From Streptomyces sp. SAI-127 (GTDB lineage Bacteria > Actinomycetota > Actinomycetes > Streptomycetales > Streptomycetaceae): a stretch of DNA of 64,000 bases. Of the stretch, positions 21,376-63,436 are shown one piece after another. A program made the position numbers and the translations under genes. How positions within the stretch are numbered: position 1 is the first letter of the stretch; the number at the start of each line of letters is the position of its first letter. The notes beneath the pieces are model-generated. The model saw only the letters and a program-made list of their open reading frames with translations, had not been told where the DNA came from and searched no databases. The DNA is taken from NCBI RefSeq assembly GCF_029894425.1, contig NZ_JARXYJ010000001.1:3100001-3164000 (forward strand), read 5' to 3'.

Positions 21376-22980
21376 GTGGACCCGGTGATCATCGTCGGAG
21401 CGGGGCCCGTCGGGCTCACGCTCGCCCTGGCGCTGGCGCGTCAGGAGGTGCCCTCCGTGGTCCTCGACGAAGGCCCGGGCAAGGACGAACCCCGCCTGGC
21501 CCGGACCGCCGTACTGCACGAGGACACCGCCGCTCTCATCTCGCGGCTGACCGGAGTGCCGGTCAACGAGCTCGGTGTGCACTGGGCCGGATGGCGGTCG
21601 ATGCGCCGCAAGCAGGTGATGCGCGAGGTCGACTTCGAGGAGGCCGGAGACGCCCCTCTGCACCTCGCGCAGCACGTCCTGACCGGCGCCCTGCGCGCCG
21701 CCCTGGCCGAGCAGCGACTGGTCAAGCTCACCACCGAAAGCCGTCTCGACACGATCGAGCAGGAGCCCTCGGGCGTCACCGCCCATACCCGCGGCCCCAA
21801 GGGCACCTGGTGGCGCGGCAGTTACCTGGTCGGCTGCGACGGCCCGCGTTCCACCGTGCGCAAGCTCCAGGACATCCGCTTCCCGGGCCGTACGGCGGTC
21901 GAGCGCCACGCGGTCGCCGCCCTGCGCGCGGAACTCCCCTGGGAGGACCGGGCGTTGCTCCACCGGATGCCACCGTGGCGGACGTCCGGCCCGTCGGCCG
22001 GGGAGATCACCGCGCGCCCGCTCCCCGACGGAGTGTGGCGCCTGGACTGGCTGCTGCCGCCGGGCAAGGACCTGGTCACCCCCGAGCTCCTGGTGGCCCG
22101 CGTCCGGGAGACCCTGGCCGGCTGGACGGGCGGCTCGACACCGCCGTACGAACTCCTCGACACCGGGGTCCACACCGTGCACCACCGGCTGGCCCGCCGC
22201 TGGCGCGCCGGCCGGGTCTTTGTCGCCGGGGACGCGGCGCACTGCCTCGGGGCGCTCGGCACGCAGGGCCTCGACGAGGGCCTCAAGGACGCCGACAACC
22301 TCGCCTGGAAGCTCGCCCTGGCCTGGCACCACGGGTCGCACGAGGCGCTTCTCGACAGCTACCAGACCGAGCGGCGCACGGTCGTCGCCGGTCGGCTGCG
22401 CGCCGCCGACCAGGCGCTGCCGCTGCTGCGTGGCGGCGGGGGGCTGCGCTCGGTCGTCCCCGGCTCGGCCCGCGGCCACGACGCCCTGCTCACCGACGGT
22501 CACCTGGGTCGCGGCCCGCTCGGCGCGCCGGGGACGTACGCCGACTCGCCCCTCGCGCCCCGGCATCTCGAAGGAGAGGTGCCCGTCGACACCCTGCCGG
22601 GGTCCGCGGTCGCGGATGTGCGGGTCACCGCCGAGGACGGCTCGTTCGTACGGCTGCGCGAGCGCCTCGGCCGCGGCGCGCTGCTGGTCGTACTGGTCGC
22701 GCCGGGCACCGGAGTGTGGGAGCGCAAGCACTGGGTGACCGCCGGGATCATGCCCCGTCTGGCCGCGTCGGTGACCGCGCTGCCGCACCACGCCGAGCTC
22801 CTGGTGGCCGAGGAGTACCCGGGTGCGGCCCCCCACACGGTCCTTCTCGTACGGCCCGACGGTCACCTCGTCACGGCGCTGAGCGGAGTCCGCCCGGCCG
22901 ACCTGTACTCGGCGGCCGAGACGGCGCTCGGCGGACCGCCGGCGAAGGCCGAGGCCGGCGCGGGGGCCGGCTCCCGTTGA
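21376..22980 (+). CDS. FAD-dependent aromatic monooxygenase (UbiH/MhpA-like)
   Basis: 534-residue flavoprotein hydroxylase of the FAD_binding_3 family. It has the dinucleotide motif IIVGAGPVGLTLALALA at residues 5-21, the DG motif GCDGPRSTVRKL and the second FAD motif GRVFVAGDAAHCLGALGTQGLDEGLKDADNLAWKL. A thioredoxin-like C-terminal domain follows. The substrate is unknown. The GTG at 21376 opens the FAD fold directly; a longer in-frame extension to 21286 is unlikely. Not in a biosynthetic cluster; the neighbours are transport and cysteine genes. Confidence 0.88.
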   Translation: MDPVIIVGAGPVGLTLALALARQEVPSVVLDEGPGKDEPRLARTAVLHEDTAALISRLTGVPVNELGVHWAGWRSMRRKQVMREVDFEEAGDAPLHLAQHVLTGALRAALAEQRLVKLTTESRLDTIEQEPSGVTAHTRGPKGTWWRGSYLVGCDGPRSTVRKLQDIRFPGRTAVERHAVAALRAELPWEDRALLHRMPPWRTSGPSAGEITARPLPDGVWRLDWLLPPGKDLVTPELLVARVRETLAGWTGGSTPPYELLDTGVHTVHHRLARRWRAGRVFVAGDAAHCLGALGTQGLDEGLKDADNLAWKLALAWHHGSHEALLDSYQTERRTVVAGRLRAADQALPLLRGGGGLRSVVPGSARGHDALLTDGHLGRGPLGAPGTYADSPLAPRHLEGEVPVDTLPGSAVADVRVTAEDGSFVRLRERLGRGALLVVLVAPGTGVWERKHWVTAGIMPRLAASVTALPHHAELLVAEEYPGAAPHTVLLVRPDGHLVTALSGVRPADLYSAAETALGGPPAKAEAGAGAGSR

Positions 22981-22986
22981 CGTGCT

Positions 22987-23018
22987 CACCGTCACTGTGT
23001 GTCCACATAGTGACGGTG
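22987..23018. terminator. hairpin after the monooxygenase and before the Cys leader promoter
   Basis: CACCGTCACT (22987-22996) pairs with AGTGACGGTG (23009-23018); the loop can add TGTG/CACA after one mismatch. No U-run follows. It ends three bases before a predicted -35 element, so it may be a terminator or an operator for the cysteine unit. Confidence 0.55.
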
Positions 23019-23020
23019 AG

Positions 23021-23050
23021 TTGAAACGCTCCGGGCCCTCATGGTGTACT
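23021..23050 (+). promoter_or_regulatory. predicted promoter of the cysteine-catabolism unit
   Basis: A -35 TTGAAA (23021-23026) and -10 TGTACT (23045-23050) with an 18-base spacer put transcription start at about 23057-23058, coinciding with the GTG of the leader ORF. This implies a leaderless transcript. Confidence 0.5.
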
Positions 23051-23057
23051 CCGCATC

Positions 23058-23144
23058 GTGACCGACACCTGTGTGCGCCTGTGGCGGAGGGTCCATATGG
23101 ACCTCGTCCGCTATGCGGGCTGCGTGTGTCGCCCGTCCTGCTGA
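23058..23144 (+). CDS. Cys-rich leader peptide (28 aa), putative cysteine attenuator
   Basis: Short ORF starting GTG with no Shine-Dalgarno sequence and ending 76 bases before cysteine dioxygenase. The product has an Arg-rich middle followed by HMDLVRYAG and ends CVCRPSC, with four cysteines in total, three within the last seven residues. The Arg/His-x-Asp-Leu-x-Arg pattern and Cys-Arg tail match the putative leader peptides seen upstream of sulfur-metabolism genes in Streptomyces. It also resembles the leaderless polycysteine ORFs shown in mycobacteria to act as cysteine-responsive attenuators. Ribosome stalling at the Cys codons would report low cysteinyl-tRNA. The function here is inferred. 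Confidence 0.75.
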   Translation: MTDTCVRLWRRVHMDLVRYAGCVCRPSC

Positions 23145-23220
23145 ATTCGCCTCTTCACTTTCCCGCGTGCTGTGTCCGTGCGACGGCACGCCTTCGCGAA
23201 CTCTTCTCAGGACGGTGTCC
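23145..23220 (+). promoter_or_regulatory. leader region with alternative hairpins sequestering the cysteine dioxygenase RBS
   Basis: Two stems compete. GCGTGC (23165-23170) can pair with GCACGC (23186-23191), or CGTGC (23177-23181) with GCACG (23186-23190) across a GACG loop. GGAC-GGT-GTCC (23210-23220) folds over the AGGACGG ribosome-binding site, and the upstream GTCC (23174-23177) can also pair with GGAC. This is a plausible attenuation layout but not proven. Confidence 0.4.
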
Positions 23221-23754
23221 GTGTCTGCCTCCCCCGCATTCCCCTCGGTGTCCTCCATCGCGCCGCCCACCCAGGCCGACCTCCTCGACTTCGTACGGCG
23301 CACCGCCGCCGACTCCGAGCTGATCGACTCGCTCCCCCTCGACCCGGAGGGCCGCACCTGGGTGCGCCTGGAGGGGCCCGGCGGCAGCGAGGCGTGGCTG
23401 ATCGGCTGGCCGCCCGGCACCGGCACCGGCTGGCACGACCACGCCGAGTCGGTCGGCGCCTTCACCATCGCCGCCGGAGAGCTCAAGGAGAACTCCCTCG
23501 CCGCCCGGCTGCCCGCCGACGGCTGGAAGACCCTCGAACTCTCCGAGGACGTGGACCGCGAGCGACGACTGCCGGCCGGAAAGGGCCGCTCGTTCGGACA
23601 GCACCACGTCCACGAGGTCCTCAACGAGTCCACCGAGGTCCACGCGGTCTCGGTGCACGCCTACTACCCGCCCCTCCCCCAGATCCGCCGCTACAGCCGC
23701 ACGGGCCAGATCCTCCGGCTGGAGCACGTGGAGCGTCCGGAGGACTGGCAGTGA
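23221..23754 (+). CDS. cysteine dioxygenase
   Basis: Non-haem iron cupin, 177 residues, oxidising cysteine to cysteine sulfinate. Two metal histidines are visible in GTGWHDHAES (H72, H74), with the third in FGQHHVHEVLNES (around H131). The family aromatic tail is HAVSVHAYYPPLPQIRRY. The GTG at 23221 follows AGGACGG; longer frames run through the leader region and are rejected. The rhodanese gene overlaps its stop by 4 bases, so both enzymes are co-translated and likely handle excess cysteine sulfur. Confidence 0.9.
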   Translation: MSASPAFPSVSSIAPPTQADLLDFVRRTAADSELIDSLPLDPEGRTWVRLEGPGGSEAWLIGWPPGTGTGWHDHAESVGAFTIAAGELKENSLAARLPADGWKTLELSEDVDRERRLPAGKGRSFGQHHVHEVLNESTEVHAVSVHAYYPPLPQIRRYSRTGQILRLEHVERPEDWQ

Positions 23755-57366: not shown

Positions 57367-57442
57367 TGGAGCCCCCTAACGGAATCGAACCGTTGACCTT
57401 CTCCTTACCATGGAGACGCTCTGCCGACTGAGCTAAGGGGGC
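57367..57442 (-). tRNA. tRNA-Thr (anticodon GGT)
   Basis: 76 bases including an encoded CCA. Acceptor stem GCCCCCT / AGGGGGC, D-loop AGTCGGCAGAG, anticodon loop ATGGTAA with GGT at 57409-57407, T-loop TTCGATT. All four stems pair. It reads ACC and ACU codons. It is the last gene of the minus-strand block after the rrn operon and DegT-like gene. Confidence 0.96.
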
Positions 57443-57515
57443 CTGTCGCTTTCGAGGTTTCCCTCGCGGCAACGGAATAGATCATACCCCGAGCAGGCCC
57501 GTGCTCCCAACTCGC

Positions 57516-58193
57516 TCAGAAAGCGGGCTGAAGCAGTCCCCCAAGTGCATTGCACGCGGCCACGACCCGCTGCATGTCCCGCTTGGTCAGCGAAGCGTCC
57601 ACCGGCAGCGCAAGCGTCTCGTCGGCGGCCCGCTCGGTCTCCGGCAGCGACACACAACGCCGGAATTCGGGCAACCGGTGCACGGGCGTCTTCACCGGCA
57701 CCCGGCAGTCAACTCCCTTGCCCCGCAGGGCCCGAGCGAACGCGTCCCGGTCCGGCCGCCCGTTACCCGGCACCCGCACCACATACTGCTGATACGTGTG
57801 TCCGTCCCCACCGTCGGGCGTGCGCACCCCGCGCAACTTCCCATCGAGGTAGCAGGCCCGCTCCCGACGCTGAGCGACCTCGTCGTACGGCGCCTCTGAC
57901 TCGCCCTCCTGCAGGACCAGCAGCCCGTGCCGCTGCCCGAGCGCGAGCAGTCGCGCCATGTCGGCCGGTCGCCCGAATCGGTGTACGACAACGACGGCCG
58001 CCGTCCGCGGAGTTACCGCCGCTTCGACAGCGGAGGCGTCAAGGCAGTAGCTGACCGGATGTATGTCCGCGAACACCGGAAGCGCACCCGCGAGTGTCAC
58101 CGCCTCGGCGACTTCGACGTTCCCGAAGGCCGGTACGACGACCTCGTCACCGACTCCGACGCCGGCGGCCCTGAGCATTGCAGCAGTACCCAT
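57516..58193 (-). pseudogene. DegT/DnrJ/EryC1-type aminotransferase homologue lacking the PLP lysine region
   Basis: 225 residues versus 370-400 for the family. It starts abruptly at the GTAAM motif normally found near residue 50. It keeps the strand GDEVVVPAFGNVEVAEAVTLAG, PVFADIHPVSYCLD and AAVVVVHRFGRPADM. It then passes, where roughly 100 residues holding the Schiff-base lysine should be, to a short charged stretch. The C-terminal motifs HTYQQYVVRVPG and VPVKTPVHRLPEF remain. It cannot be a normal PLP aminotransferase. It is either a decayed gene or a repurposed binding protein. The open frame and normal codon bias favour persistence. It lies between 5S rRNA and tRNA-Thr. Confidence 0.65.
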
Positions 58194-58238
58194 GCCTCGG
58201 ATGGTGGTTGCGCAACGTGAACTTCAAGTGACGCACAA

Positions 58239-58286
58239 CAAAAAAGGGTTGGACCCCGAACCGAAGTTCAGGATCCAACCCTTTTT
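58239..58286 (-). terminator. rRNA operon terminator
   Basis: On the minus strand, GGGTTGGATCCTGAAC-TTCG-GTTCGGGGTCCAACCC: a 16-bp stem (two G-T pairs) with a stable TTCG tetraloop, preceded by AAAAA and followed by a T-run, 10 bases after the 5S gene. Confidence 0.93.
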
Positions 58287-58295
58287 GAATAATTG

Positions 58296-58413
58296 TTCGG
58301 CGGTGTCCTACTCTCCCACAGGGTCCCCCCTGCAGTACCATCGGCGCTGTAAGGCTTAGCTTCCGGGTTCGGAATGTAACCGGGCGTTTCCCTCACGCTA
58401 TGACCACCGAAAC
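58296..58413 (-). rRNA. rrf: 5S ribosomal RNA
   Basis: About 118 bases, minus strand. The 5' end GTTTCGGTGGTCATAGCG, internal CCCGGTTACATTCCGAAC and 3' GAGTAGGACACCGCCGAAC match actinobacterial 5S, with the ends complementary. Confidence 0.95.
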
Positions 58414-58484
58414 ACTATGAAGTTAGACCGGAAACACAACACGGTCGTTGCCTCAGAACTAACACAGTGGACGCGAGCAAATAT

Positions 58485-63436
<4,952 letters not shown>

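Follow-up and report, generated by a model that had tools for sequence, protein, structure and literature searches.

Leader peptides are found before amino-acid-degrading operons in the case of TnaC and other catabolic arrest peptides, with TnaC responding to an excess of the amino acid. In mycobacteria, leaderless poly-Cys attenuators have reportedly been treated by Canestrari et al. in 2020. Such attenuators are described in the accessible sections of three reports (PMC9031893; PMC9094748; PMC13236596). In Streptomyces lividans, the accessible text on the attenuators alaL, ilvL, thrL, trpL, leuL and metL presents them as short, mostly leaderless ORFs which, like the leader discussed here, carry regulatory codons ahead of the target gene, and none of the eight leaders in Table 4 of that paper is described there as Cys-dependent or as preceding a cysteine dioxygenase (CDO) gene (PMC8079986). 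The metL leader of metNIQ, with several methionines and threonines according to the same table, has GARCMCRRMCAF at its end and could pass for a Cys leader at least equally well (PMC8079986). The leader studied here lies before a CDO gene of a Streptomyces and shares its peptide motif and the position of a UGU codon with the leaders of sulfur genes in the NCBIfam family NF042934, from which it differs in preceding a cysteine-degrading enzyme, in having two fixed Cys residues (22 and 24) and in a tail complementary to the Shine-Dalgarno sequence. It resembles the mycobacterial attenuators in being a short Cys ORF before sulfur genes, leaderless by prediction, but has no poly-Cys run (the leader of a second CDO gene has one) and faces a catabolic target. 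As with TnaC, a leader stands before a degradative operon; in contrast to the excess response of TnaC, the evidence at the CDO locus leans towards a response to shortage. The leader class is already known, and the unusual part is CDO as its target.

The window is the whole stretch of Streptomyces DNA that was analysed, 64,000 nucleotides in length. Its relevant features are as follows.

22986-23019, strand not assigned: inverted repeat immediately 5' of the -35 element; on the minus strand, 23014-22999 reads GTCAC-n6-GACAC, which is GlnR-box-like
23021-23050, plus strand: promoter, with -35 TTGAAA at 23021-23026, 18 bp, and -10 TGTACT at 23045-23050
23058-23144, plus strand: leader ORF of 28 codons, GTG at the predicted +1, reading MTDTCVRLWRRVHMDLVRYAGCVCRPSC
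23094-23111, plus strand: family motif H-x-D-L-x-R, codons 13-18; the peptide is constant and the codons differ between leaders
23121-23123, plus strand: Cys22, UGC; TGC in 76 of 77 strict orthologues
23127-23129, plus strand: Cys24, UGU, the proposed sensor codon (family position 12); TGT in 77 of 77 strict orthologues
23133-23140, plus strand: anti-Shine-Dalgarno CCGTCCTG, in the last three codons, exact reverse complement of 23208-23215
23146-23150, plus strand: 5' arm UUCGC of an inner helix, with partner GCGAA at 23196-23200; 94.3% of cells paired, no compensatory change
23165-23191, plus strand: hairpin of GCGTGC (23165-23170) and GCACGC (23186-23191); 94.2% of cells paired
23208-23227, plus strand: CDO Shine-Dalgarno CAGGACGG (23208-23215) and start region GTGTCTG (23221-23227), mutually pairable
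23221-23754, plus strand: CDO, start GTG 23221; PF05995, 166 bits
23751-24227, plus strand: rhodanese-domain protein, PF00581; 4-base overlap with CDO

The first-pass annotation had placed a GTG-initiated ORF at the predicted transcription start of a TTGAAA-18-TGTACT promoter, 76 bases before CDO, and these coordinates were confirmed, with 76 bases between the leader stop and the CDO start GTG 23221 and no room for a Shine-Dalgarno sequence ahead of GTG 23058. The genes downstream are, as it had proposed, those of CDO and of a rhodanese-domain protein. Window CDO resembles PDB chains of CDO in its sequence and shares 97% identity with the CDO in a Streptomyces record. A rhodanese-domain gene follows CDO at 71 of the 80 loci, as far as the retrieved flanks reach. 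The upstream neighbour of the leader encodes an FAD monooxygenase (PF01494), and RecX and RecA, assigned by eye, lie downstream on the opposite strand. At 57370-63436, the minus strand carries a tRNA gene plus 5S, 23S and 16S rRNA genes. A search of 22950-23300 against Rfam 15 returned no family match at E up to 1. The inverted repeat upstream of the promoter scores at least 10 in 31 of 79 orthologues against none of 79 shuffles, and was rejected as a shared operator because the genome holds a single site even with up to three mismatches. As a GlnR box, the pattern GTNAC-n6-GWNAC has three matches in the window against 2.8 expected by chance, and the strict form (GTnAC-n6-GTnAC or GAnAC) occurs in 4 of 79 orthologues, the window box standing at about chance density; the link to GlnR, drawn from the accessible part of PMC3087709, is suggestive only.

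Among Streptomyces CDO loci (the best 80 of at least 465 relatives), alignment bore out the expectation that the ORF would be kept, the leader being found at 79 of 80: 77 have the strict motif and two (L068 and L078) a relaxed one, and L098 retains only a 3' remnant. Initiation is at the same codon, GTG or ATG, in 72 of the 79 leaders and at a GTG two codons earlier in the other 7. The distance from the -35 element to the start is 36 bases at 63 loci, 37 at 15 and 35 at one, so that 78 of 79 agree, by sequence, with the leaderless geometry that had been predicted. The -10 element is TGTACT at 62 of these loci, TCTACT at 13, TGTAAT at 3 and different at one, and the -35 element, TTGAAA in the window, is TTGACC in 72 of 79 relatives. 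At least 90% of 81 aligned sequences, L098 included, match the window at 77 of the 87 ORF positions. The description of the leader as Cys-rich also held, with four Cys residues at 5, 22, 24 and 28, the last three in its C-terminal part, and only two of them are fixed among the 77 strict loci (Cys22 in 76, Cys24 in all 77), Cys being present at position 5 in 57 and at position 28 in 64. Inside the ORF, 23090-23103 forms a palindrome, GGTCCATATGGACC, which is nearly base-invariant among orthologues.

Across 25 genomes of the genus, a CDO orthologue occurs in 23 and has the leader in front in 22 of them. Genome G010 (L162/L281, L280) has an orphan CDO leader still in place, with its CDO elsewhere, behind different sequence and with no visible leader before it. 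A class-wide sample of 196 genomes yielded the leader at 17 of 18 Streptomyces CDO loci, two of these 18 genomes overlapping the first set, and the exception is a partial CDO match. At CDO loci of other families, 4 of 7 have a leader-like ORF, chosen by eye and by motif and confined to two families; two of the four had genomes in the family search, where neither ORF was listed, and the leader-like ORF of L274 extends into the CDO gene. Judged on its conservation, the leader ORF is more than a product of chance.

For NF042934 ('cis_reg_atten, putative leader peptide'; cut-off 27 bits), the leader peptide reaches 37.1 bits. It ranks first among the nine matches of this genome that exceed the cut-off, which no match in 14 control genomes does. 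It carries the motif H/A-x-D-L-x-R with Cys at the 12th residue, a criterion defined here from a catalogue of leaders, and this Cys is Cys24. To NF042933 (leader_Ms5788A) the leader is only a weak match, at 17.9 bits against a cut-off of 45. Sister leaders in the same genome stand before genes whose products have PALP, luciferase-like monooxygenase, nitrite/sulfite reductase, transport permease, GST, rhodanese, ROK and sugar-binding domains. Pfam confirmed the domains, as distinct from the gene names, for nine target genes of this genome; the PALP gene is a cysteine synthase by context, and the names SirA, SsuC and SseA are our reading. The catalogue comprises 154 leaders from 25 genomes, namely 142 of the 183 matches of the other 24 genomes, drawn from 150 listed of 192 matches (143 of the 150 lie in those 24 genomes, and one of them, at a contig end, was left out), and 12 from the same genome, of which three fall below the NF042934 cut-off. 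Seven leaders without Cys at position 12 (L010, L211, L213, L217, L218, L223 and L237) belong to one downstream-protein cluster, whose member in this genome has a GST domain, and the class looks as if its sensor had been lost or changed. L282, L284 and L285, all from one other family, are poly-Cys leaders with an AVDLCR motif and TGT at position 12, and form a bridge between the poly-Cys and HVDL leader types.

When the first motif residue (His or Ala) is numbered 1, position 12 of the 154 leaders is Cys in 147, Ser in 5, Gly in one and a stop in one, and the Cys codon is TGT in 145 of the 147. Elsewhere TGT is a minority codon: the downstream genes use it for 21 of their 199 Cys codons and 29 gene-like ORFs of the window for 16 of 97, and the remaining Cys codons in or just before the same leaders number 42 TGT against 121 TGC. 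Positions 5 (37 to 8), 10 (22 to 4) and 16 (32 to 1) strongly favour TGC, and positions 13-15 are mixed (16 TGC to 13 TGT). Position -7, which is Cys5 of the CDO leader, favours TGT by 11 to 1, and Cys5, where present in the CDO leader, is TGT in 51 of 57. Position 12 is likewise TGT in all 20 leaders parsed from 12 other families (25 of 28 loci could be parsed, L290, L295 and L309 being excluded for contig ends) and in the four leader-like ORFs that precede CDO beyond the genus. Since most motif codons vary, the frozen UGU is not a mere consequence of common descent. The rarity of UGU suggests that it is decoded more slowly. The frozen UGU at position 12 appears to be new here; the listed titles and abstract openings of open-licence PubMed Central papers gave no description of the UGU rule or of a CDO leader.

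The same genome has a second CDO paralogue (PF05995, 70.6 bits, 36% identical), and before it lies the leaderless poly-Cys ORF MLANLALTSTRTAGSHGAARARCSCCCCSSC (L312:707-802, minus strand), whose peptide matched no NCBIfam family. Distant CDO matches number 28 in 24 genomes, of which 21 were examined first and then the other 7; a poly-Cys leader was seen at 21 of 21 and at 2 of 7, that is, at 23 of 28 matches and in 23 of 24 genomes (L312, L314-L333, L335, L336), and four of the five negative matches are extra CDO-like genes in genomes already counted. The distance from TTGACA to ATG, searched at 33-40 bases, is 36 in 19 cases and 37 in 4. A strict Cys-tail test is passed by 20 of the first 21 regions against 1 of 2100 shuffled ones, and the Cys codons of these leaders are 99 TGT and 24 TGC. 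The two CDO genes thus bear Cys leaders of unrelated sequence. The second CDO leader, a candidate recognised from its ORF and promoter spacing, appears to be new here.

The proposal that a cysteine attenuator stands before CDO is likely right. With slightly better than even confidence, we lean to the view that the NF042934-family leader senses Cys-tRNA and controls the CDO-rhodanese operon by translational attenuation, derepressed on cysteine shortage. A ribosome would initiate directly at the transcript 5' end and, with ample Cys-tRNA, would run through and depart the leader. The tail CCGUCCUG, an exact reverse complement of the CDO Shine-Dalgarno, would then pair with it, aided by two inner helices, and CDO translation would be low. 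With Cys-tRNA scarce, the ribosome would pause when codon 24, the rare UGU, occupies its A site, and would cover the anti-Shine-Dalgarno, freeing the CDO start. In this way a lack of cysteine would derepress CDO, as with the sulfur-acquisition genes that follow sister leaders, and excess cysteine would be no inducer.

The fold itself is a prediction on which the alignments bear unevenly. The helix between anti-Shine-Dalgarno and Shine-Dalgarno has 93.8% of cells paired among 78 distinct sequences and zero compensatory changes, and the hairpin at 23165-23191 shows 7 double-changed cells, in two pairs; in slid controls, 27-51% of cells are paired against about 94% for the three helices. Double-change cells number 2-6 in slid controls against the 7 observed, which none of 500 shuffles reached, and the covariation scores of slid controls go up to 0.059 against 0.051. 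As proof of a long-range helix covariation failed, and against the shortage model it counts that the Shine-Dalgarno helix and the one next to it never change on both sides. The first-pass annotation had the ribosome-binding site hidden in alternative hairpins; two pairing partners for it, the leader tail and the adjoining start region, were borne out in a sample of 78 loci plus the window, and RNAalifold prefers the local Shine-Dalgarno/start hairpin over pairing with the leader tail. A strong anti-anti-Shine-Dalgarno within the leader was looked for and not seen, the tail being nearly free in leader-only RNA, with a median opening cost of 2.1 kcal/mol.

In partition-function folds of 78 of 79 CDO loci (L069 was left out, having no recognisable Shine-Dalgarno), opening the CDO start costs a median of 13.7 kcal/mol when the leader is free, 13.7 with a ribosome at Cys22, 9.4 at Cys24 and 9.6 at the stop, so that a modelled Cys22 stall leaves the start closed. 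An edge scan took in 39 of the 80 loci (every second), 23 catalogue CDO leaders and six other classes. For the 39 loci, the cost falls as the 3' edge of the ribosome advances between +4 and +10, counted from codon 24, and the model is sensitive to this edge within a few bases. Among ten other leader classes, named from their N-terminal motifs, a ribosome at the sensor codon eases opening by 1.8-5.7 kcal/mol in the SfnG, SseA and TcyP types, and in the other seven the change is about 1 kcal/mol or less in either direction. Because seven of ten classes lack stall opening, start opening cannot be the general mechanism of the NF042934 family, and by these models the mechanism in the seven may differ from that of the CDO leader. 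In a simple exclusion simulation, with single runs and the fraction of time for which the anti-Shine-Dalgarno is covered as readout, coverage rose from 0.04-0.65 under replete to 0.75-0.76 under starved conditions. Slow initiation gives a clear gain, and fast initiation combined with slow termination a small one (0.65 to 0.75), which in that setting vanishes without Cys28 (0.65 to 0.66), a residue absent in 13 of 77 strict loci.

SCO3035 of S. coelicolor is presumed here to be a CDO gene, which a look-up did not confirm. SCO5772 we take to be the orthologue of window CDO, going by its annotation in PMC3087709 and its presumed place beside recX and recA. In the accessible part of a study on S. 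coelicolor, H2O2 raised SCO5772 8.00-fold in the wild type, together with ssuABC, cysN, D, C, H, I, cysA, cysM and metN, and SCO3035 appears in the same table with 6.54-fold; under H2O2, no gene is given as up-regulated in the HbpS-SenS-SenR mutant (PMC4991794, Table 1). In S. venezuelae, Sven_5427, the homologue of SCO5772 and termed a 'putative cysteine dioxygenase', is reported as GlnR-dependent and more than 5-fold up on nitrogen starvation; both names occur once each in the accessible text, in the expression table, so that they are seemingly not ChIP-chip sites (PMC3087709). As far as the accessible sections go, feather medium raised two CDO mRNAs 50.2- and 8.3-fold (PMC7181669), and in feather-grown S. 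shaoguanensis both CDO genes were low at 0-48 h and up at 96 h, when sulfate-assimilation genes were also up, variably (PMC12763843). Diamide induces cysI, cysA and cysM, and SCO5772 is not mentioned in the accessible text (PMC4340878). Given that the H2O2 induction needs HbpS-SenS-SenR and that S. venezuelae shows GlnR dependence, transcription factors may explain the mRNA changes. Expression in feather medium and under nitrogen starvation leaves the sign of control unsettled.

The first-pass annotation had expected reversed logic, as a new wiring of the mechanism, since the controlled genes would degrade cysteine. In such a scheme, fast reading of the Cys codons would bring ribosomes to the stop, where they would cover the anti-Shine-Dalgarno and turn CDO on, and starved ribosomes would stop at Cys22 and leave it off. 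Physiology argues for this sign, opposite to derepression on shortage, and the feather-medium rise and the GlnR-dependent nitrogen-starvation induction, as given in the accessible parts of their sources, fit a catabolic role (PMC7181669; PMC3087709). In the models, too, a ribosome at the stop opens the start as well as one at Cys24, a Cys22 stall keeps it closed, and a hypothetical leader stalling at Cys22 alone gives the inverted sign in simulation. The codon frozen in the family is nevertheless Cys24 rather than Cys22, that sensor being UGU in 145 of 147 leaders and its stall lowering the opening cost; Cys22 was rejected as a special sign inverter because a Cys at this place is common, occurring in 14 of 20 leaders from other families. 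The lack of a strong anti-anti-Shine-Dalgarno, the rise of tail coverage in simulated starvation, the induction of SCO5772 alongside cysteine-biosynthesis genes (accessible part of PMC4991794) and the late rise of the S. shaoguanensis genes with sulfate assimilation (that of PMC12763843) also stand against it. Reversed wiring is the less likely sign, and we regard the Cys22-based scheme as unlikely; sensor codon, geometry, simulation and published RNA-seq favour for the CDO leader the same sign as for the biosynthetic leaders.

A different level of action is improbable, somewhat more so than reversed wiring, but would explain several observations: a ribosome at UGU24 could shield the RNA from Rho or stay coupled to polymerase, in which case the anti-Shine-Dalgarno would matter little, and the conserved H-x-D-L-x-R nascent chain may aid the stall, by analogy with arrest peptides. 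The peptide motif is constant with free codon choice and the Cys codon is frozen, seven of the ten other classes show little or no stall-dependent opening, no U-rich run follows the hairpins by eye, and the accessible published data report shifts at the mRNA level (PMC7181669; PMC12763843; PMC4991794). Such transcriptional action leaves unaccounted for the complementarity of tail and Shine-Dalgarno and the strong closure of the CDO start. That the ORF instead persists as a neutral relic or results from constraint on the RNA or the promoter, with CDO controlled by GlnR and SenR alone, is very improbable: a GlnR-box-like sequence at the promoter and the reported GlnR- and HbpS-SenS-SenR-dependent inductions in S. 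venezuelae and S. coelicolor (accessible parts of PMC3087709; PMC4991794) would agree with it, against which stand the conservation of the ORF with its frozen UGU, the leader-like ORFs that precede CDO in two further families and the unrelated Cys leader of the second CDO.

Under the preferred reading of derepression on shortage, the placing of cysteine-consuming CDO in the cysteine-shortage regulon appears to be new here; that its rise serves sulfite production for disulfide cleavage, or the salvage of other thiols, are guesses. More tentatively, and with rather less than even confidence, two of the CDO genes of Streptomyces may be under two unrelated kinds of starvation leader and the whole NF042934 family may be a ribosome-nascent-chain sensor. 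With both CDO genes under starvation leaders, the cell would raise cysteine oxidation together with synthesis when Cys-tRNA falls, and the H-x-D-L-x-R nascent peptide would present a near-obligatory, slowly decoded UGU to the A site. On the shortage model, a cysteine-consuming enzyme would join a regulon regarded as cysteine-saving, with a clear prediction on sign. The frozen UGU offers a simple one-base handle (UGU to UGC) on cysteine sensing by actinomycete Cys leaders, and a codon-level check for leaders missed by the protein model, such as those of the second CDO and of CDO in other families.
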